NCBI RefSeq assembly: GCF_017939745.1
Contig: NZ_JAGKQQ010000001.1
Coordinates: 3,844,001 to 3,908,000, forward strand
Origin: Gemmata palustris
GTDB taxonomy: Bacteria > Planctomycetota > Planctomycetia > Gemmatales > Gemmataceae
DNA length: 64,000 nt
Direction of reading: 5' to 3'
The translations under genes were made by a program, and so were the position numbers. Positions 1 through 11,011 of this stretch are shown here, piece by piece. Below the pieces are notes generated by a model that saw nothing but the letters and a program-made list of their open reading frames with translations, searched no databases and had not been told where the DNA came from. Each line of letters opens with the position of its first letter. The first letter of the stretch is position 1.

Positions 1-2002
1 CCGGTCTTCCTGAGCGCCCTGGCCGAGTCGGTGGACAAGGTGAAGGCGTTCGCGGTCGGCGGGGTGGACTACCTGACCAAGCCGTTCCAGATGGAGGAGC
101 TGCACGCCCGCGTCGAGACCCATCTCAAGCTCCGCCGGCTCCAACTCGAACTCGAAGCGTATCAGGATTACGACAACTTCATGCTCGACCCGGACGGGAA
201 CGTCTCCACCTGGAACCCCGGCGCCCGAAGAGCAAAGGGTATACGGCCGCCGAAATCATCGGCCGGCACTTCGCGTGCTTCTACACCGCCGAGGACGCGG
301 CGGCGGGCAAGCCGGAGCGGGGTTGCGGATCGCGTTGGAGGGCGGGCACTTCGAGGAAGAGGGCCTGCGGGTGAAGAAGTGCGGGTCGCCGTTCTGGGCG
401 CGAGCCACCATTACCAACGTCCACGACTCCATGGGGCGGCACATCGGCTTCGCCTACGTCACCCGGGACATCAGCGCGCGAAAGCAGGCCGAGCAGGTGC
501 TGCAGTTGCGCGACCGGGCCATCGAGTCGTTGATCCAGGGGTTGTGCATTACGGACCCGACCCGACCCGACAACCCGATCATCTACGTCAACGACAGCTT
601 CCTGCGCTCACCGGTTACGCCCGCGAGGACGTGATCGGGCGGAACTGCCGGTTCCTCCAGGGGCCGAAGACGGACCCGCAAGCGACCGAGCGTGTCCGGT
701 CCGCGGTTCGCGAAAGCCACCCCTGTCTGGTGGAGTTGCTGAACTACCGCAAGGACGGCACGACGTTCTGGAACGGGCTGTCGGTCTCGCCCATTCCCGG
801 CGCCGACGGCCGGGTCGCGCACTTCGTCGGGGTGCTCACCGACGTCTCCCCGCTGAAGCTCCTAGAGCAGCAGTTCCACCAAGCGCAGAAGATGGACGCG
901 GTCGGCCAACTCGCGGGCGGGGTGGCGCACGACTTCAACAACCTCTTGACGGTGATTTCCGGTTACAGCGAACTGCTCCTCGGCACGCTCCCCGAACGAT
1001 CCCAAGTGGGACGCCGTCAAAGCGATCAGTGACGCCGGTGAGCGAGCCGCGGCGCTGACACGCCAGTTGCTCTCGTTCAGTCGCCAGGCGATCCTGGAGC
1101 CAAAGGTGATGGATCTCAATGAGGTTGTAGCAGACACGGAGAAATTATTGCGGCGGGTGATCGGAGAAGATATTTGGCTCACGACTGTTCTCGACCCGAA
1201 CGTGAGTCGGATCAAAGCCGATCCCGGCCAGATCGGCCAGGTGCTTATGAATCTGGCCGTGAACGCCCGGGACGCGATGCCCCAAGGCGGGAAGCTCACC
1301 ATCGAGACGTCAAACGTCCAAGTCGACGACGACGCCCAGTGCCACAATTGTAAACCGGGCCGGTACGTGGTGTGTTCGGTCCGCGACACTGGGACCGGTA
1401 TGACGCCCGACGTCAAGCCACACGTTTTCGAGCCGTTTTACACCACTAAGGGGCCGGGGAAGGGTACCGGGCTGGGGCTGGCGACCGTTCACGGGATCGT
1501 ACAGCAGAGCGGGGCGGCATCGTTCTCGACACCGAACCGGGCCGCGGCACGACCTTCAAAATCCACCTCCCGGCCGTTGACGAGCCACTGTTCCCCCTTC
1601 CCTACGATCGACGCGCATCAGACGTCCCGGGCGGGACCGAAACGGTTCTCGTGGTTGAGGACGAGGACGCCGTGCGCGCCATTGCCGTGCTCGCGCTGGA
1701 ATCCCAGGGTTACCGCGTGCTGCAGGCGGAGAGTGGAAAAAGGGCTTACTGCTCAGCGAGAGACACCAGGGGTGCATCGAACTGCTCGTGACGGATGTGG
1801 ACATGTCGGGCATGAGCGGTCGAGAGCTGAGCGCGACACTGAGCCTTCGGTATCCCGAACTTAAGGTGCTGTATCTGAGTGGCTACACCGACGACACCGT
1901 CATCCAACACGGCGTCCTCCGTGCGGAAGTCGCCTTTCTTCAAAAGCCGTACACCCCGTTGACGCTGGCAAAAAGGTCCGCAAGGTGCTCGACAAGCGAT
2001 GA
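1..2002 (+). pseudogene. decayed hybrid sensor histidine kinase (REC-PAS-LOV-HisKA-HATPase-REC), 5' end outside window
   Basis: The conceptual protein is recognisable only by hopping frames. It has the tail of a receiver domain (1-155), a PAS domain (about 170-480), a LOV-type PAS with the flavin-adduct motif GRNCRFLQG (about 540-850), a HisKA H-box HDFNN (about 930), an HATPase with the GTGLGLAT motif (about 1460) and a C-terminal receiver ending at a TGA at 2000-2002. Reading-frame changes fall near 237, 320, 603, 997, 1513, 1740 and 1970, each explained by a single-base indel. The domain order from LOV onward matches the intact kinase at 3846-7784, so this is probably a decayed paralogue. 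A protein from this locus is unlikely unless the frameshifts are sequencing errors. Confidence 0.8.
6..157 (+). repeat. 152-bp direct repeat, copy 1 (copy 2 at 2434-2585)
   Basis: Bases 6-157 are identical to 2434-2585 at every position I compared. Both encode the C-terminal half of a receiver domain plus the start of the linker helix. Copy 1 additionally lacks three bases (one Ile codon) just upstream. After the repeat the two genes diverge abruptly: PAS/LOV here, SpoIIE phosphatase in copy 2. This indicates recent duplication or gene conversion, or domain shuffling at the receiver boundary. Confidence 0.95.
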
Positions 2003-2164: not shown

Positions 2165-3361
2165 ATGACTCCCGTGAAGCCCGACAGCGGCATAAAATAT
2201 CCGGCCAGTATTTTGGTAGTGGACGACACGCTGGCGAACCTGCAGGTTCTGGCTGGGATGCTCAAGGACCGGGGGTACAAGGTGCGCCCGGTCCCGAGCG
2301 GCAAGCTGGCGCTGCTGGCGGCCCGGCGCGAGCCCCGGACCTGATCCTGCTGGACATCAACATGCCCGAGATGAGCGGGTACGAGGTGCGCGCACCTCAA
2401 GGCCGACGACAAGCTCAAGGGCGTCCCGGTCATCTTCCTGAGCGCCCTGGCCGAGTCGGTGGACAAGGTGAAGGCGTTCGCGGTCGGCGGGGTGGACTAC
2501 CTGACCAAGCCGTTCCAGATGGAGGAGCTGCACGCCCGCGTCGAGACCCATCTCAAGCTCCGCCGGCTCCAACTCGAACTCGAAGAATACAGCCGCGATT
2601 TAGAGTTGGCGCGCGAGCGGCTGAAGCTCGATCTGGAATTGGCCCGCGAGGTACAGCGCGACTTCCTGCCGCTGTTCTTGCCCGACGTTTCAGGGTACGA
2701 GTTCTTCGCCCATTACGAGTCGGCCTACGAGGTCGGCGGTGACTACTATGACTTCATCCCACTGACCGGCCAGCGCGTGGCCGTCTTATTGGGTGACGTC
2801 GCCGGCAAGGGGGTGGTTGCGGCCCTTCTGATGGCCAAGCTCAGCGCCGACGCGCGGTTCTGCATGTTAACGGAGCCCGACCCCGCGGCCGCGATCACCA
2901 AACTGAACGCCCTCATGATCAAGTCCGGACTCGCGGACCGGTTCGTGACCCTGGTCGCGGCCGTCCTCGACCCCGTTCGACATACCGTGACGCTGGTCAA
3001 CGCCGGCCACCCATCACCCCTGATCTACCACCGGGGCACGCGCACTGCGGGAGAAGCAATCAGTACCGAGGTGGCTGGCTTACCTCTCGGTGTCCTCGAC
3101 GGCTTCGAGTACACGTCATGTCAGGTTCACCTGGAGCCGGGCGACAGCATTCTGGCGTTCACGGACGGCGTCACAGAGGCCACGGATGTTCAGGATCTTC
3201 AGTTGCAGATGAAAGGAGTGTATGCCGCGGTGCGTGGGGGCGCGTACTCTCCCAAAGCTTTGGGAGAGCAAGTAGTCAAGGTCGTGAAACAGTTCGCCGC
3301 TGGCCGCAGCCAGCAGGACGACATCGCGCTGGTAGGCTTTGGGAGGACCGGTGCATCTTGA
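2165..3361 (+). pseudogene. response regulator with SpoIIE/RsbU-type PP2C phosphatase output, two frameshifts in REC
   Basis: From the ATG at 2165 the frame encodes a receiver start (ILVVDDTLANLQVL), hits a TGA near 2342, resumes in another frame for the phospho-acceptor segment LILLDINMPEMSGYEV, then shifts again near 2392 into a frame open to 3361. That last frame (from about 2459, 300 aa) carries the end of REC, a coiled-coil linker, and a complete SpoIIE/RsbU phosphatase: EVQRDFLP, GGDYYDF, LLGDVAGKG, LVNAGHPSP and FTDGVTEA motifs, with the metal-binding acidic residues present. Members of this family dephosphorylate anti-sigma antagonists in partner-switching pathways; no partner is visible here. 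The phosphatase domain is intact, so either two single-base deletions broke the gene recently or the base calls are wrong. Confidence 0.8.
2434..2585 (+). repeat. 152-bp direct repeat, copy 2
   Basis: Identical to 6-157; see copy 1. It encodes the KPF signature region and last helix of the receiver domain. Confidence 0.95.
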
Positions 3362-3845: not shown

Positions 3846-6800
3846 TCACACCGAGTCGCCGGATTTCCTGTCCAGTACACCGCGAACGAAACGGGCCAGG
3901 GCATCCGGTGTGTACGGTTTTTGAAGGAACGCCACCTGCTTCTCCTCGACCCCGTGCCGCAGGACCGCGTCTGCCGTGTACCCGGACAGGAAGACGACTT
4001 TGATCCTTGGGAATTGAACCGTCAACACTTCGGCCAACTCCCGCCCGCTCATTCCCGGCATAACGACGTCGGTCAGCACCAGGTCGGGTGGGACCGGTAG
4101 TCGGGCGCACGTCGCCAGGGCGGCGGTCCCAGATTCGGCCGCTTCGACCCGGTACCCCTGTCTCACCAGGACGGTGGTCGTGAGTGCCCGCACGGCCTCG
4201 TCGTCCTCGACCACCAAGATGGTCTCGCTTCCGGTCGGCCGCGGGGCCGGGCGCAGAGCGGATTTCGGTTCCTCGGACGGTTTGTCCTCGTACCGGGGGA
4301 GGTAAACTGCGATCGTCGTGCCCCGACCGATCTCGCTCAGTACCGTCAGGAACCCGCCCGACTGGCTGACAATACCGTACACCATAGCCAGTCCCAGCCC
4401 GGTTCCCTTGCCGATGTCCTTCGTGGTGAAGAACGGCTCGAACAGCCGGGCCTGGACGTCCGGCCCCATGCCCGTGCCCGTGTCGGTGACGGACAGTCGC
4501 ACGTACCGCCCAGGGCGGGCGTCGGGGGAGTCGGGAAGGGTCGCGTCGGTTACGTCCGCTGGGGCCGTTTCGATGACGAGGGTTCCGCCTCGCGGCATCG
4601 CGTCTCGCCCGTTCACTGCCAGGTTGATCACCACCTGCTCGACCTGTCCCACGTCGCCCTTTACGAGCCCCGATTCCGGGCCGAGAACGGTCCTCAGGGC
4701 GATATCTTCCCCCAGCAGACGAGTGAGCAGTTTGGCCGTGTCTTGGAGCACCTGGTTCAGATCGAACACCTCAACCCGGAGCATTTGCTGGCGACCGAAC
4801 GCGAGCAACTGTCGGGTCAGGGACGCGCCCCGCGCGCCGGCTCGAACGATGTCTTCGACCAGGGGCCGGGTCGGGGCATCGGCCGCCAGTTCCAGCAACA
4901 GGAGCTCGCCGCACCCGTTGACCACGGTGAGCAAGTTGTTGAAGTCGTGCGCCACACCGCCCGCCAACTGCCCGACCGCCTCTAATTTGTGCGCCTGACG
5001 GACCTGATCTTCCAGCTTGCGTCGCCCGCTCACGTCGGCCTGGACCCCGATGTAGTGGGTGAGTCGCCCCGCGTCGTCCCGCACCGGGGAGAGCTGGAGG
5101 TGGTTCCAGAACGGGGTTCCGTCCTTACGGTAATTGAGCAGTTCCACGTCGCACGGGCGCGCGTCCCGGACCGCCTCGCGGAGCAGAATCAGCGCCTCCT
5201 GGTCGGTGCCCGGCCCTTGGAGGAACCGGCAGTTCCGCCCGGCCACCTCGGTCCCGGCGTACCCGGTGAGCCACTCGAAACCCGGGCTCGTGTAGATGAT
5301 TGGGTTGTCCGCGCGGGCGGCGTCGGTGATCACGATGCCCTGGCGGACTGCCCGGATCGCCCGGTCCCGCAGCCGCAGTTCCAGCTCGGCGCGTTGTCGG
5401 GCGGTCACGTCCTGAGCGAGTGAGAGGATGCCCTGGAACGCGCCGTCCGGGGCGAAGAGCGGCGTGTTATGCCACTCGCACACGATTGTCCGACCGTCCC
5501 CGGTGACGTTTTCGCACGACCCGTTGGCGTTCATGTCCCCGCCCGCCAACCGCGCGAACACGTCGGCCACAAGGGACCGGGACGACTCGGGGACGATCGC
5601 CTCGAACGGGTGTCGCCCGAGCACCTCGGACTGCGCGAACCCGAAGATCCGTTCGGCGGCGGGGTTCCAGCGGGTGTACCGGAAGTCCGGTCCGCTCAAC
5701 AAGTAGGCCAGGGGCAGGCGCTCGATCTGCAGGTTCAGACGGGCGAGTAGTTCGGCGCGCTCGGTCTCGGCCCGCTTCCGGGAACTAATGTCCTGTACGA
5801 CCCCGACCATTCGGACGGCCCGGCCCGCGGGGTCGTAACGGAACCGCCCGGTCGCCGCCACCCACCGCTCGGTGCCGTCGGGCCGGCGGACCCGGTGTTC
5901 GTGAGAATATCCCGTCCCGGCGGACATGGTTTGGCGGAGCGCCTCCTCTACACCCGGCAGATCGTCCGGGTGAATGCGGTCCTTGAAGTGCCGGAGTTCG
6001 ACCGTAAACGAATCGTCCGGGGCGTACCCGAACAGTTCGTAGTGGGACCGGGACCAGATCACCTGACCGCTCGCCACGTCCCAGTCGAACGTCCCCATGC
6101 CCCCGGCCGACAGGGCCAACACGAGCCGCTCCTCGCTCGCCCGGAGGGCGGCCGAGGCCGCCCTGTGCTCGGTCACGTCGACGGCGACCCCGCCCACCTG
6201 GCGGCTTCCGTCCGGTCCCGGGAGCGGGAACTTGTACACCAAGAACTCGCCCGCACTGCCGTCCGCACGCACGCCCGGCTCGGTCACGGTCAGGACCGTT
6301 CCGGAGTCGGCGACGGTGAGGATGTTCCGGAGGTACACTGCGGCCACGTCCGGGGGGTACAGGTCCCAGACCAGGCGGCCGACGATCTCGCCCGGCGGGA
6401 GCCGGAAGGTGCGCTGGTAGGACGCACTCAGGTACACCATGTGCCCTTCCCGGTCCGTGACCCAGGCCGCGGCCGGGCTGTGATCCATGAACGCCCGGAA
6501 CCGCTCCTCGCTCGCCCGCAGCTCCTCCTCGGCTCGCAACTGGTCGGTCACGTCCTGGGCCAGCACGACCTCGGCCGGGCGCCCGGCGAACGTCAGCGTG
6601 TGGCTCACGATCCGCACCCGTATCACCCGCCCGTGCCGCAGGCGGTGGCGCCACACCCCGGCCTCGTCCAGCCCGCTGGTGTCGGCGGCCAAACTGGCGA
6701 GGAGCGCCGGAACGTCCTCACGGGGTCGAATGTCCTTGATCGTGAGGCCCAGGAACTCGTCGCGGTCGTAACCGTACTTGGCGACCGCCGCATCGTTCAC

Positions 6801-7784
6801 CGCGAGGAACCGCAGGGTCTCCCGGTCGAACACCCACATGGGGTGCGGGTTGGCCTCGAACAGGTGCCGGTACCGCTCCTCACTGTCCCGCATCTGGGCC
6901 TCGGCGCGCTGCCGCTCGGTGATGTCCCGGAACACCAGGACCGCCCCGGCCACCCGACCCTCCTCGTCACGGATCGGCGCCGCGCAGTCGTCGATCGGAA
7001 GTTCGCGGCCGTCCCTGGCGATCAGCACCGTGTGGTTCGCCAGCCCCACGAGCACCCCGTCCCGCAACGCCCGAACGGCCGGGTTCTCGACCTCGGAGCG
7101 CGTCGTCTCGTTAACGATGTGGAACACGGACCGGAGGTCCGCACCCGCGGCGCCTTCGGCCGACCACCCGGTCAGGGCTTCGGCGACCGGGTTGAGAAAC
7201 GTTATCCGCCCGGCGGTGTCCGTGGCGATGACCGCGTCCCCGATGCTCGACAGCGTGGTGCGGAACCGCTCGCGCTCGGCGCGCAGGGCCGCGTTCACAC
7301 AGGTCAGTTCTTCGGTTCGGTCCCGTACCCGCCCTTCCAACGCGGCGTTGGCGCGGACCAGCGCCGCTTCGGCCGCGCGTCGGGCCGCGACCTCGCGTTC
7401 CAGTTCTTCCGGGGTCGGCATCGCCAGCATTTGCGGGGTGCCCTTAACGAGGGCCAAGACCGTTACCCACGAGATGACGGCGGTGACGAACTTGAGAAGC
7501 CCCGCGAGCCGGTACGCGGGCCACCAGAAAATGACGGCCTCCATCAAGTGTGTGGTTCCGCAGACCAGAATGAAGGCCGTGAACAACAAGAAGATGCGGC
7601 GAAATGGCACATTTTTCTTGCGAGCAACGAAGTACCCTAGCACCGCAGGTATTGCCATGTAAGCGGACCAGACCCCTAGATCGGAGAGCACGTGGAGCCA
7701 CCCGTGGGCCGGGGTCCAAGCCCCGCACCGCCACCGGGGTGGGAACCCGGACGCATCGAACAACAAACCCAAAAATTCGAACAT
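3846..7784 (-). CDS. hybrid histidine kinase with ethylene-receptor-like copper domain, six PAS (one LOV), HisKA, HATPase and REC
   Basis: 1312 aa. Residues 30-113 form three membrane helices matching the ethylene-binding domain of plant ETR1: the five residues known to matter there (Asp25, Tyr32, Ile62, Cys65, His69) appear with identical spacing as D35, Y42, I72, C75 (in FILVCGTTHL) and H79, so a Cu(I) site is likely. A coiled coil (125-170) is followed by PAS domains at about 170-290, 300-415, 425-540, 550-670, 680-795 and 805-920. The last is a LOV domain with GRNCRFLQG, cysteine 852 being the flavin-adduct residue. HisKA follows (H-box AHDFNN, His946), then HATPase (N-box about 1054-1060, GTGLGL at 1127-1132) and a receiver with Asp1239 in LTDVVMPGMSG. 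I start at the ATG at 7784 because the ethylene domain begins there; the longer open frame upstream is antisense to or inside the insertion sequence. There is no DNA-binding output. Predicted inputs are ethylene or copper and blue light (inference from residues). Confidence 0.92.
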   Translation of the reverse strand: MFEFLGLLFDASGFPPRWRCGAWTPAHGWLHVLSDLGVWSAYMAIPAVLGYFVARKKNVPFRRIFLLFTAFILVCGTTHLMEAVIFWWPAYRLAGLLKFVTAVISWVTVLALVKGTPQMLAMPTPEELEREVAARRAAEAALVRANAALEGRVRDRTEELTCVNAALRAERERFRTTLSSIGDAVIATDTAGRITFLNPVAEALTGWSAEGAAGADLRSVFHIVNETTRSEVENPAVRALRDGVLVGLANHTVLIARDGRELPIDDCAAPIRDEEGRVAGAVLVFRDITERQRAEAQMRDSEERYRHLFEANPHPMWVFDRETLRFLAVNDAAVAKYGYDRDEFLGLTIKDIRPREDVPALLASLAADTSGLDEAGVWRHRLRHGRVIRVRIVSHTLTFAGRPAEVVLAQDVTDQLRAEEELRASEERFRAFMDHSPAAAWVTDREGHMVYLSASYQRTFRLPPGEIVGRLVWDLYPPDVAAVYLRNILTVADSGTVLTVTEPGVRADGSAGEFLVYKFPLPGPDGSRQVGGVAVDVTEHRAASAALRASEERLVLALSAGGMGTFDWDVASGQVIWSRSHYELFGYAPDDSFTVELRHFKDRIHPDDLPGVEEALRQTMSAGTGYSHEHRVRRPDGTERWVAATGRFRYDPAGRAVRMVGVVQDISSRKRAETERAELLARLNLQIERLPLAYLLSGPDFRYTRWNPAAERIFGFAQSEVLGRHPFEAIVPESSRSLVADVFARLAGGDMNANGSCENVTGDGRTIVCEWHNTPLFAPDGAFQGILSLAQDVTARQRAELELRLRDRAIRAVRQGIVITDAARADNPIIYTSPGFEWLTGYAGTEVAGRNCRFLQGPGTDQEALILLREAVRDARPCDVELLNYRKDGTPFWNHLQLSPVRDDAGRLTHYIGVQADVSGRRKLEDQVRQAHKLEAVGQLAGGVAHDFNNLLTVVNGCGELLLLELAADAPTRPLVEDIVRAGARGASLTRQLLAFGRQQMLRVEVFDLNQVLQDTAKLLTRLLGEDIALRTVLGPESGLVKGDVGQVEQVVINLAVNGRDAMPRGGTLVIETAPADVTDATLPDSPDARPGRYVRLSVTDTGTGMGPDVQARLFEPFFTTKDIGKGTGLGLAMVYGIVSQSGGFLTVLSEIGRGTTIAVYLPRYEDKPSEEPKSALRPAPRPTGSETILVVEDDEAVRALTTTVLVRQGYRVEAAESGTAALATCARLPVPPDLVLTDVVMPGMSGRELAEVLTVQFPRIKVVFLSGYTADAVLRHGVEEKQVAFLQKPYTPDALARFVRGVLDRKSGDSV

Positions 7785-7862
7785 AGGATGGACCGAGTCG
7801 GTGCCGGAGTGAGTCGGAGGTCGCGGGCGACCGCTTATGGCGTCGCTGCACGCGATGTCGAG

Positions 7863-9343
7863 ATCTGACTGTACTTTCCGCGAACTTATAGCGTTTAAGC
7901 AGCCAGATCCAGGCACCGGCGCGAGGGGCGCGGATTCTCGCGGGGTCGTGGTGCTCGCCCACAACGGCCTGAATTTCCTCGGCCAGCAGCTCCCGTTGCC
8001 AGGCCCGGCGCTTGTCCGCGTGGCTCGGGCCGGTTCGGATCGTCCCACGGGGAGGCCGCCCGATGGGCCACCAGTTCATCCGCCTTCTGGTTCCAGGCCC
8101 ACACCTCGGTGAGCGTGAGGGACCACGCACACAGGTGGAAGCATCCCACGTTCGACGCGACCCCGCGTACCTGCTGGTGACCGGCGCCCGCGACCTGTTT
8201 GAGATCTCGAAAACAGGTTTCCAACGAGAACCGGTCCGCGATCAGGCCCAGGATGTCGGCCACGGAGGCCGTGGGGTCCGTGCAGAAGAACGCGACCCAC
8301 CCCTTGGGTTCGTCCACCAGGACGACCCGGATCGTGCCCCCCGGCCGGCCGCCACGTGGCCTCGAACGTCTTGTACCGCTTCTCCACGGGCTTCCCATAC
8401 AGGGTGAACGTGCCCGTGGTCCACCCGCCCTTGTGCCCGGCCCGCTTGGCGAGCGACACCCGCTGCTCCCCGTACACGCGGGGCCGCCCGCGGGCGCTCG
8501 GATCGCGGGCCGGGGCACCGTCCACAGGGCCGCGTCCTTGCGGAGCCGGCTCACCATGGTCACCCGGGCGCGAGTAGGGCCTTGAGCACCGGGGCCTTGG
8601 CACGCCCCGTCGGCCACCACCCACACGGCCCGGCCCCACGTCTTCAGCCACCCGTGGGCCCACCGGACCAGGTCCACGGCCATCACCAACTTGGTTGCGA
8701 ACTCGGGCCGGTCCGGCCCGGGATGGCCCTGAGATCTTTGCGGCGGATGTACAGGCGGGCCAACAGGGGAGGGCCACAATCCCCCGAGGGGGTGTCCCAC
8801 CAACAACCCGAGGACCACCCACACGTGCCCGTACACGAACGGGCCCCCGGCCGGCCCGGGTGTCGGGTTGTGGTGCGCCCCGGCCCCTCGAACCTTGGGC
8901 CCGTACCGCTCCGTCGGGGTGTCGTCGAGGGCCAGCACCACCCGAGCGCACCGGCCACCATGGGCTTGAGAACCTCGACCAACAACCGCATGGCGATACG
9001 CTCGGTGCGGGCCCCACGGCCGCGGCCGTGGCGTAGCACCGGCGGTACTGGGGCGACAGCCCGGCGGCCCGGATCCAACCCGCGAGGGCGGCGCCCGCGG
9101 GTCAGGATGATCCCGAGGAACAGGACCGCGAGCCGCCGCCCGGACCGCGGGTCCAGAGCCTTGGCCAGGGTTGAAAACCAGTGGCACCGAGGGGCCGGAG
9201 TATGCGAAGATGGCATGGCCGCGTCCGTTCGGGTCGGGAGGTCGTGTGGTAACGCCATCCTCCCGGACGGGCCGGCACTCGTCTACTCCCGACCCCACAA
9301 CTTACGCCAACCGCCTATAACTTCGCGGAAAGTACAGATCTGA
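7863..9343. mobile_element. insertion sequence, ~1.47 kb, IS4/IS701-like DDE, with inverted repeats and 6-bp target duplication
   Basis: The ends are imperfect inverted repeats: left 7869-7891 starts CTGTACTTTCCGCGAA and right 9315-9337 is its reverse complement, 22 of 23 positions matching. They are flanked by a direct repeat ATCTGA (7863-7868 and 9338-9343), a likely target-site duplication. The interior holds a frameshifted transposase on the minus strand. The element lies only 85 bp upstream of the ethylene/LOV kinase start, so it may have displaced or supplied that gene's promoter. Confidence 0.85.
7895..9258 (-). pseudogene. transposase (DDE, IS4/IS701-like), multiple frameshifts
   Basis: Pieces in three minus-strand frames together give a DDE transposase of roughly 430-450 aa. 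In order they are an N-terminal segment (CHWFSTLAKALDPRSGRR), a first catalytic region VLALDDTPTERYGPKVRG, a second acidic region around VVADGA, the segment RFSLETCFRDLKQV containing the catalytic Glu region, and a C-terminus ending LDLAA at the TAA at 7895. At least five frame changes separate them, so the copy cannot transpose on its own. Family assignment rests on the DDTPT motif and layout and is tentative. Confidence 0.8.
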
Positions 9344-9724
9344 GGTGCCCGCTGAAAACTCGTCATTCGGACTGAAATACGTCGTCTGGGCAGTTTAGTA
9401 TATCATCATACTCACATACAGTCTGAAGCGGGAATAGACCGCGTTCACGCCAAATTCGCCAAGGCCCTCGCCGCTTCACGGGTGTCGTTTTGCCAACAAA
9501 CAGAGGCCGGAGGAGGTATTCAGCTCCGGCACCAAATATCGTGTTACATCACGAATTAATGAGGATTTGTTAATTTCGGACACAACCTTCGGAACCGACG
9601 GGGGCAATCCCGTGCTACAGTTTTTTGACCTCACACGAATCGGTTCCTCCAGCCGGATGGCCATAACCCATTTGAGCACGACCGTTCATGACTAGATGAG
9701 GACCGGATCGTCTTCTTGCCCGAG
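9344..9724. other. non-coding stretch between IS and kinase pseudogene
   Basis: No open frame has convincing protein character and the base composition is lower in GC than its neighbours. It probably holds the eroded 5' part of the kinase pseudogene that follows. Confidence 0.4.
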
Positions 9725-11011
9725 TAAGCAATACTGACCGCACGGGACGGGTCCGAGATCCCGGTCGGCGATAGTGCGACCCCGATCCGCGTGGCACTGC
9801 ATGTCAAAGGCGTAGTACTGGTGTTCCGAGACCTCACCGAACAGTTGCGCGCCGCAGAGGCAGCCCGAAAAGCCAGCGAGGACGTGCGCCACACTCAGAA
9901 AATGGAAGCGGTCGGTCGATTAGCCGGTGGTTTGGCGCACGACGTAAACGACATGATGACCACCGTCATAGGCTTCGGCGAACTCGTCCTGGAACACCCC
10001 CCTGTTGGGCGCCCGGTTCGCGATATGGTTGTAGAAATGAAACGGGCCGGGGACCGGGCCGCGGGCCTCACCGTCAGCTTCTCAGTTTCGCCCGCAAGGA
10101 AATCCTGATTCCGGCAGTAAACGACTTGAGCGGGGTCGTAATGCTCCGGCGGTTGATCGGACCGGACATCACGCTCCGCACTCAACTCCAAGCGGATCTG
10201 GGGGCGTATTGGTGGACCGCGGGCAACTGGAACAGGTCACTATGAATCTGGTCGTGAACGCGCGCGACGCCATGCCCGGCGGAGGCGCTTTGACAATCGA
10301 AACGGCGGACTTCCGAATCGGTGATGAGTTCGAGGCCGGCGTCCCCGAGCTCCAGCCCTGAGATTATGTCGCCCTGACCGTTTCCGATACCGGGTACGGG
10401 ATGGACGCGGTCACGCGCACGCGCGTTTTCGAGCCGTTCTTTACCACCAAGGAAGTCGGCAAGGGGACCGGGCTGGGACTGGCGACGGCTTACGGGATCG
10501 TCAAGCAGGCCCACGGTCACATCTTCATTGATAGCGAACTCGGGCGCAGATCGACATTCAAAGTGTATCTTCCACGTGTCGCGACTGGCCCGATCGGAGA
10601 AGCCACTCCATTACGGGCCGAGTCGCAAGGCGGTTCCGAAACGATCCTGCTCGTGGACGACGACGACGGCGTCCGTCGCATGACCCGCGAGTTACTCTGG
10701 CAGTCGGGATACCGAGTTCTCGAAGCAGCGGACGGTGAAGAGGCCCTGTTGCTTTGTGCGCGCGAACCCGGGGCAATCGACATGCTGCTGACCGACGCAA
10801 TTATGCCCGTGATGAGCGGCGGACGGTATCCGATCGCATAACGGCAGTGCGCCCCGAGGTGAGCGTGTTGTTCATGTCCGGTTGCACCGAGGACCAGGTC
10901 TTCCGGCACGGCGTTCAGTCAGGTGAAGTCACCTTCATTCGAAAACCGTTCAGCACCCGCGACCTCGCGACCCGCGTGCGCGAGGTGCTGGACACCTCCG
11001 TGGCGCGGTAG
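9725..11011 (+). pseudogene. decayed PAS-histidine kinase-receiver gene
   Basis: A PAS C-terminal half (DGSEIPVGDSATPI, VLVFRDLTEQ) leads into a HisKA whose H-box reads AHDVNDMM in place of the usual HDFNN. Then come HATPase pieces (N-box [11 protein letters not shown], stop codon at about 10360, then [20 protein letters not shown]) and a receiver with LLTDAIMPVMSGG, broken again near 10825 and finishing at 11011 in a third frame (VTFIRKPFSTRDLATRVREVL). Frameshifts, an internal TGA and the damaged H-box all indicate a pseudogene. It is the third member of the kinase family in the first 11 kb. Confidence 0.8.

Follow-up and report, generated by a model that had tools for sequence, protein, structure and literature searches.

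A planctomycete hybrid histidine kinase that pairs an ethylene receptor-type membrane domain with a LOV domain

The kinase gene and its domain order

The window, i.e. the whole stretch of 64,000 nucleotides analyzed here (Gemmata palustris, Planctomycetota, contig NZ_JAGKQQ010000001.1, positions 3,844,001 to 3,908,000), carries on its minus strand a hybrid histidine kinase gene that combines an ethylene receptor-type membrane domain with a LOV photosensor domain. The gene lies at 3846..7784 (all kinase features below are on the minus strand) and encodes 1312 amino acids (aa). Its frame is intact, with 1312 codons and zero internal stops, and the coordinates and frame given in an earlier reading of the bare sequence (the original prediction) were thus correct. 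Upstream of the ATG at 7784 the frame stays open as far as a GTG at 8048; the ATG was preferred because the alignment to the closest relative, L077 from the same genus, starts at the same Met1. Profiles, motifs and a structure model gave the domain order as an ETR1-type membrane domain, five PAS domains (PAS1-PAS5), LOV, HisKA, HATPase and a receiver (REC).

The features that define a hybrid kinase are all present, namely a HisKA domain with the phospho-acceptor His946 in a VAHDFNN motif (residues 938-999; 4788..4973; Pfam, 25.0 bits), a HATPase_c domain (residues 1044-1164; 4293..4655; 66.9 bits) and a receiver with Asp1239 (residues 1189-1298; 3891..4220; 72.2 bits). The NCBIfam model NF010076 (PRK13557) matched residues 809-1309 with 497.8 bits, which is below its family cut-off of 631.

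The ethylene-type membrane domain

The N-terminal domain (residues 27-122; 7419..7706), identified by profile, model and conservation, scores 117.3 bits against the Pfam profile ETR1_N (PF25487), whose cut-off is 27 bits. We refer to this ETR1-type three-helix membrane domain as EBD hereafter. All seven positions of the ethylene site are present in the window protein, i.e. D35, Y42, I45, P46, I72, C75 and H79. The corresponding residues of AtETR1 are D25, Y32, I35, P36, I62, C65 and H69, and the two sets lie at a constant offset of +10. Five of them (D35, Y42, I72, C75 and H79) had already been pointed out in the original prediction, and I45 and P46 fill out the seven. Among 241 distinct open reading frames (ORFs) with an EBD, described below, 199 hold the complete set, 40 differ and two are gapped at these positions, which argues that the set in the window protein is not there by chance. 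Seven residues are required for ethylene binding in AtETR1 (PMC11819568).

Structure prediction of the membrane domain, which had been proposed as a check, was performed on residues 1-149. The AlphaFold2 model, built from an alignment of 44 sequences including that of the window, has a mean pLDDT of 93.9 and three helices (25-55, 62-84 and 91-121); the remaining four models range from 73.7 to 89.2. No solved chain similar in sequence to the EBD was found at E<=1, a further PDB search gave a best E of 0.29, and no solved fold resembling the model was found at E<=0.001 in a PDB fold search.

It should be considered whether such a domain would sense copper, redox state or some small unsaturated molecule other than ethylene, with the LOV domain adding light. 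We regard this as rather unlikely. In its favor, the conserved Cys/His pair is a copper site in ETR1, and no work on planctomycete ethylene sensing was found in the open-access literature (searched partly at title level), where the three papers mentioning both ethylene receptors and planctomycetes had plant-microbiome titles. The bacterial domains with seven residues do, however, bind ethylene where tested, i.e. in AzoEtr1 (PMC11819568) and in Synechocystis.

The PAS array and the LOV domain

The sequence from residue 161 on was divided into six segments with overlaps, each 130-140 residues long, and scored against Pfam. Each segment exceeded the cut-off of a PAS model, so that we count one LOV domain and five PAS domains of the ordinary kind. 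The ordinary ones are PAS1 (residues 172-288; 6921..7271; PAS, 62.5 bits), PAS2 (residues 303-411; 6552..6878; PAS, 35.5 bits, and PAS_8, 37.3), PAS3 (residues 434-541; 6162..6485; PAS_4, 64.2 bits), PAS4 (residues 575-663; 5796..6062; PAS_3, 82.9 bits) and PAS5 (residues 690-798; 5391..5717; PAS_4, 60.0 bits). A LOV domain near the kinase core, with Cys852 in GRNCRFLQG, had been predicted together with four further PAS domains; the former stands, while the latter number has to be raised to five.

The LOV domain covers residues 809-921 (5022..5360). Besides the adduct-type Cys852 it has the motif NYRKDGTPFWN and, close to the domain end, Gln915 in the final strand; the NYRKDG stretch and the final-strand Gln are conserved flavin-contacting residues of LOV domains. 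At E<=0.001 the segment has hits to 160 distinct sequences of solved chains. The best is 9vf7_A ('histidine kinase'; 147.8 bits) with an identical GRNCRFLQ, and the best 60 of the 160 include entries named as histidine kinases, phototropins, aureochromes, sensory box proteins and miniSOG. Neither GAF nor PHY, which would mark a light domain of the SynEtr1/UirS type, is among the ten Pfam families matched in the kinase. Judged by their sequences, both input modules are real and intact.

The closest relative and the exchanged modules

L077 is the nearest relative of the window EBD, with 80% identity and a support of 96/63 in the membrane-domain tree. It is frameshifted. Over window residues 1-487 the two proteins are 79% identical, and the second frame of L077 aligns from residue 507, with 53 of 60 positions identical over 507-566 and weaker blocks in PAS4 (28/60 and 35/60). 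Window residues ~687-925, which comprise PAS5 and the LOV domain, are matched in L077 by one unrelated PAS domain only, after which identity resumes from residue 927 (43-53 of 59-60 positions per block, 19/25 in the last). The other frames of L077 contain no LOV motif, and no LOV was found in the 706-aa ORF of L080, the next relative after L077.

The kinase core (residues 930-1165) is 80.9% identical to L077 as compared to 52.6-63.4% for 14 LOV kinases; the kinase therefore belongs to the EBD lineage, and the LOV domain is the part that differs. Since both L077 and L080 lack LOV, its gain in the line of the window protein appears to be the simpler reading, while a loss in the L077 line may be the alternative.

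Distribution of the membrane domain

EBD genes were found in 25 of 59 relatives of the window genome, in 35 of the 95 genomes of its family and in 42 of the 392 of its phylum, each count including the window's own genome. In a second family (f4, that of genome G058) they occur in 44 of 170 genomes, 43 of these over the cut-off. The corresponding numbers are 37 out of 117 genomes (36 over the cut-off) in the phylum of a Brasilonema record and 25 out of 377 (24 over the cut-off) in that of the L205 genome. The EBD count in 14 control genomes was zero in every one of these family searches. Mucilaginibacter, Spirosoma, Fulvivirga, Gimesia and Zavarzinella are among the named records that carry an EBD, as seen in the top 80 out of 215 confirmed stretches. 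The ethylene-type domain itself is thus widespread in planctomycetes and is found also in Bacteroidota and other records. Among the viral contigs searched, the sole match was L214, a weak EBD relative with 39% identity on an IMG/VR viral contig.

The host genome holds two EBD genes. The second encodes the kinase L078 (G000:C1:2913500-2921800), a 1471-aa ORF without LOV. Its clade (100/96) also contains EBD kinases from eight further genomes in the genus, so that it is perhaps the core copy of the genus. Seven LOV-like matches beyond the window kinase were found in the host genome at E<=1e-12. The cysteine motif is present in four intact ones (L216-L219) and in the broken neighbor L220, and is missing in L221 and L222.

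Rarity of the pairing

ORFs were read in 260 loci, which yielded the 241 distinct EBD ORFs, and a LOV domain was sought within each. The loci comprise 44 of 80 EBD matches from the phylum of the Brasilonema record, 16 of 27 from that of the L205 genome, 20 of 27 newly found in the family of the window and 20 of 23 from a later search, besides a planctomycete sample (two rows of the phylum search, from G183:C92, were left out) and the named set, i.e. the top 80 stretches mentioned above; further matches in the family of G058 were compared by place alone. Twenty-four of the 241 ORFs fall below 400 aa in length, some being cut by contig ends or frameshifts, and scanning the downstream sequence in its other frames revealed no LOV motif.

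A canonical LOV domain is present in six of the 241 ORFs, all of them planctomycete: the window kinase, L058 from the same genus, and L062, L344, L346 and L355 from family f4. The idea of a pairing unique to the window genome was accordingly rejected. Before the last 20 loci the tally stood at 3/224, made up of 3/91 in the planctomycete sample, 0/44 and 0/14 in the phyla of the Brasilonema record and the L205 genome, respectively, 0/74 in the named set and 0/1 viral; as it rose to 6/241 after these 20 loci, further pairings surely exist. The 170 genomes of f4 gave 66 EBD matches and 36 LOV matches, and four genes have both; the LOV scan scored at most 25 candidates per genome, and overlap was judged by eye on positions. 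LOV-like PAS domains without the GxNCRF motif are found in several EBD kinases from f3, f4 and f6. In the EBD kinases L091, L063, L131, L105 and L354, G[RQK]KPGxxLQGP replaces GRNCRFLQG in a LOV-like PAS domain, which hence has no adduct cysteine.

A survey of planctomycete genomes had been suggested along with the original prediction, whose author had not met the pairing in this phylum. Such unfamiliarity holds for the combination of EBD and LOV, for which no paper was found in the open-access literature (mostly at title level). It does not hold for the EBD alone.

A second lineage and the origins of the pairing

The four f4 proteins L062, L344, L346 and L355 are spread over four genera and are of a different kinase type, with an EBD, one PAS domain (two in L346, as counted from the matched stretches), LOV, HisKA, HATPase and a receiver. 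L058 is set apart by a GAF domain ahead of its LOV. In the LOV-kinase tree the four group with L357 at 92/85 and, when L366 is added, at 100/100, apart from 17 window-type LOV kinases. The ethylene site is complete, with all seven residues, in five of the six pairings, the window protein included. The exception, L355, reads D-L-I-A-L-S-H instead of D-Y-I-P-I-C-H, having lost the Tyr, Pro, Ile and Cys with its LOV intact; the alignment at this site is less sure because the EBD score of L355 is weak (45.2 bits). In L357, which belongs to the same clade and comes from the genus of G058, an unfiltered search up to E 1 found no EBD.

The spacing between the phospho-acceptor His and the conserved Asp that follows the final PAS/LOV strand was compared in those 20 of 24 sequences that fitted the search pattern. 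It is 29 in 19 of them, i.e. the window kinase, L077, L058 and 16 kinases of the LOV type that have no EBD. Of these 16, L310 and L321 do not have the cysteine. The sole exception is L062, of the other kinase type, with a spacing of 34.

For the three LOV proteins then known, the membrane-domain tree (71 rows) requires a minimum of three LOV changes. Forcing the membrane domains of the window, L058 and L062 together, as a group defined by LOV ahead of tree building, was rejected (p-AU 0.021), whereas holding only the window and L058 together was not (p-AU 0.208). One fusion behind all pairings was rejected on two grounds, namely this three-way constraint and the 100/100 split in the LOV-kinase tree. 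The trees thus indicate at least two origins of the pairing, and the comparison with relatives suggests that the two sensors have been swapped like plug-in modules.

Proposed function and arguments against it

Because both modules appear intact at the sequence level, a dual sensor kinase for gas or copper and blue light is a fair hypothesis. The original prediction had proposed such integration, and what stands of it is the presence of both modules with their key residues. We lean, by a modest margin, towards a membrane-anchored hybrid histidine kinase with two inputs, in which LOV has been plugged into a pre-existing ethylene-type kinase through exchange of PAS modules. The three-helix EBD has the same build as the copper(I)/ethylene site of ETR1 and would respond, at the membrane, to ethylene or to some comparable small ligand; this input would travel to the kinase via the five PAS domains and then LOV. 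Blue light on LOV would gate autophosphorylation of His946, which we propose because the linker from LOV to the His equals that of ordinary LOV kinases. From His946 the phosphate would be passed to the fused receiver, at Asp1239, and from there to a putative partner. As to its history, LOV would have been inserted into the existing ethylene-type kinase by a swap of PAS modules, presumably in that direction.

Several observations weigh against this interpretation. The HisKA score is slightly under its cut-off of 26.9. LOV is absent from 235 of the 241 EBD ORFs, and none of the 44 ORFs examined in the phylum of the Brasilonema record has it, so that the two inputs need not cooperate. In the second family, LOV remains where the ethylene site (L355) or the entire EBD (L357) has been lost, which is evidence against a strict need of both. 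Such rarity, together with the four ethylene residues missing from L355 and the EBD from L357, would also fit a kinase with LOV as its sole working input, the EBD serving mainly as membrane anchor and dimerizer and the pairing resulting from neutral domain shuffling. We consider this unlikely, as the seven residues are complete in the window protein, in most of the other pairings and in the large majority of EBD ORFs. The explanations discussed here overlap, and their probabilities need not total one.

The remaining adverse points come from the surroundings of the gene. An insertion sequence (IS) at 7869-9337 (7863-9343 with its target duplication) starts 84 bp upstream of the kinase ATG. It has a DDE_5-type transposase ORF (Pfam, 27.0 bits, at the cut-off), inverted terminal repeats of 23 nt (96%) and the 6-bp duplication ATCTGA on both flanks. 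A search of positions 7700-8000 revealed no sigma-70-like promoter. Furthermore, the neighboring kinase genes are spread through several frames. One, downstream of the window kinase, is a second LOV histidine kinase at 434-1973 (+), with a Leu at the position where Gln is usual; it may be a broken gene or reflect sequencing errors. Another consists of further histidine kinase and receiver fragments in two frames at 9707-10993 (+).

The IS and its position, the several frames of the LOV kinase at 434-1973 and the frameshift in L077 could all be taken to mean that the window kinase is silent or decaying, cut off from its former upstream region amid broken kinase genes. With a frame intact over 1312 codons and the catalytic residues retained, we find this improbable, more so than any other explanation considered here. 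The surroundings also include a SpoIIE-type phosphatase ORF at 2459-3361 (+). The ORFs at 31-160 and 2459-2590 (+) share their first 40-odd residues, which probably stem from the duplication of a receiver end.

If both inputs of the two-input kinase work, integration of ethylene and light has evolved separately outside the cyanobacteria with a different photoreceptor, and would therefore be a case of functional convergence rather than a peculiarity of the cyanobacteria. A broader reading, which we put forward only tentatively and with less than even confidence, is that planctomycetes evolved at least twice kinases that read an ethylene-type copper site together with LOV, the LOV being exchangeable and the copper site dispensable, as a flavin-based counterpart of the cyanobacterial receptor. 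The window kinase (both modules), L077 (no LOV), L355 (LOV and a decayed copper site) and L357 (no EBD) form a natural series for studying how a gas sensor and LOV share one kinase. The EBD in so many planctomycetes furthermore raises the question of what use these bacteria make of the site.

Comparison with known systems

The LOV kinases of NF010076/PRK13557 and solved LOV domains such as 9vf7 resemble the window kinase in that LOV immediately precedes the HisKA, HATPase and REC domains. The NF010076 model spans only the last 500 residues, i.e. neither the membrane domain nor the five PAS domains, with the sub-cut-off score given above. Plant ETR1 shares with the window kinase a membrane domain in which the seven residues are identically spaced. 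It differs in having a GAF domain, and it is not known to carry PAS or LOV.

Among bacterial receptors, AzoEtr1 of A. brasilense has an EBD with the seven residues, binds ethylene, and has one PAS domain and a histidine kinase in 525 aa (PMC11819568). The likeness to the window kinase extends over EBD, PAS and kinase; the difference lies in the length, in the single PAS and no LOV named in the report, and in a separate response regulator. SynEtr1/UirS (Slr1212) of Synechocystis is a receptor for both ethylene and light in one kinase, as described in three reports (PMC5812497, PMC6508509, PMC6682694). A single protein there combines an ethylene-binding membrane domain at its N-terminus with a photosensory domain and a histidine kinase, an arrangement that the window kinase shares by its domain types. 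The light domain of SynEtr1/UirS is a phytochrome-like cyanobacteriochrome, whereas the window kinase has LOV and, in addition, five PAS domains and a receiver fused to the kinase, and the difference in light domain places the latter outside the SynEtr1/UirS family. If its modules act as their kin do, the window kinase would nevertheless be built on the SynEtr1/UirS plan, with LOV replacing the bilin domain.

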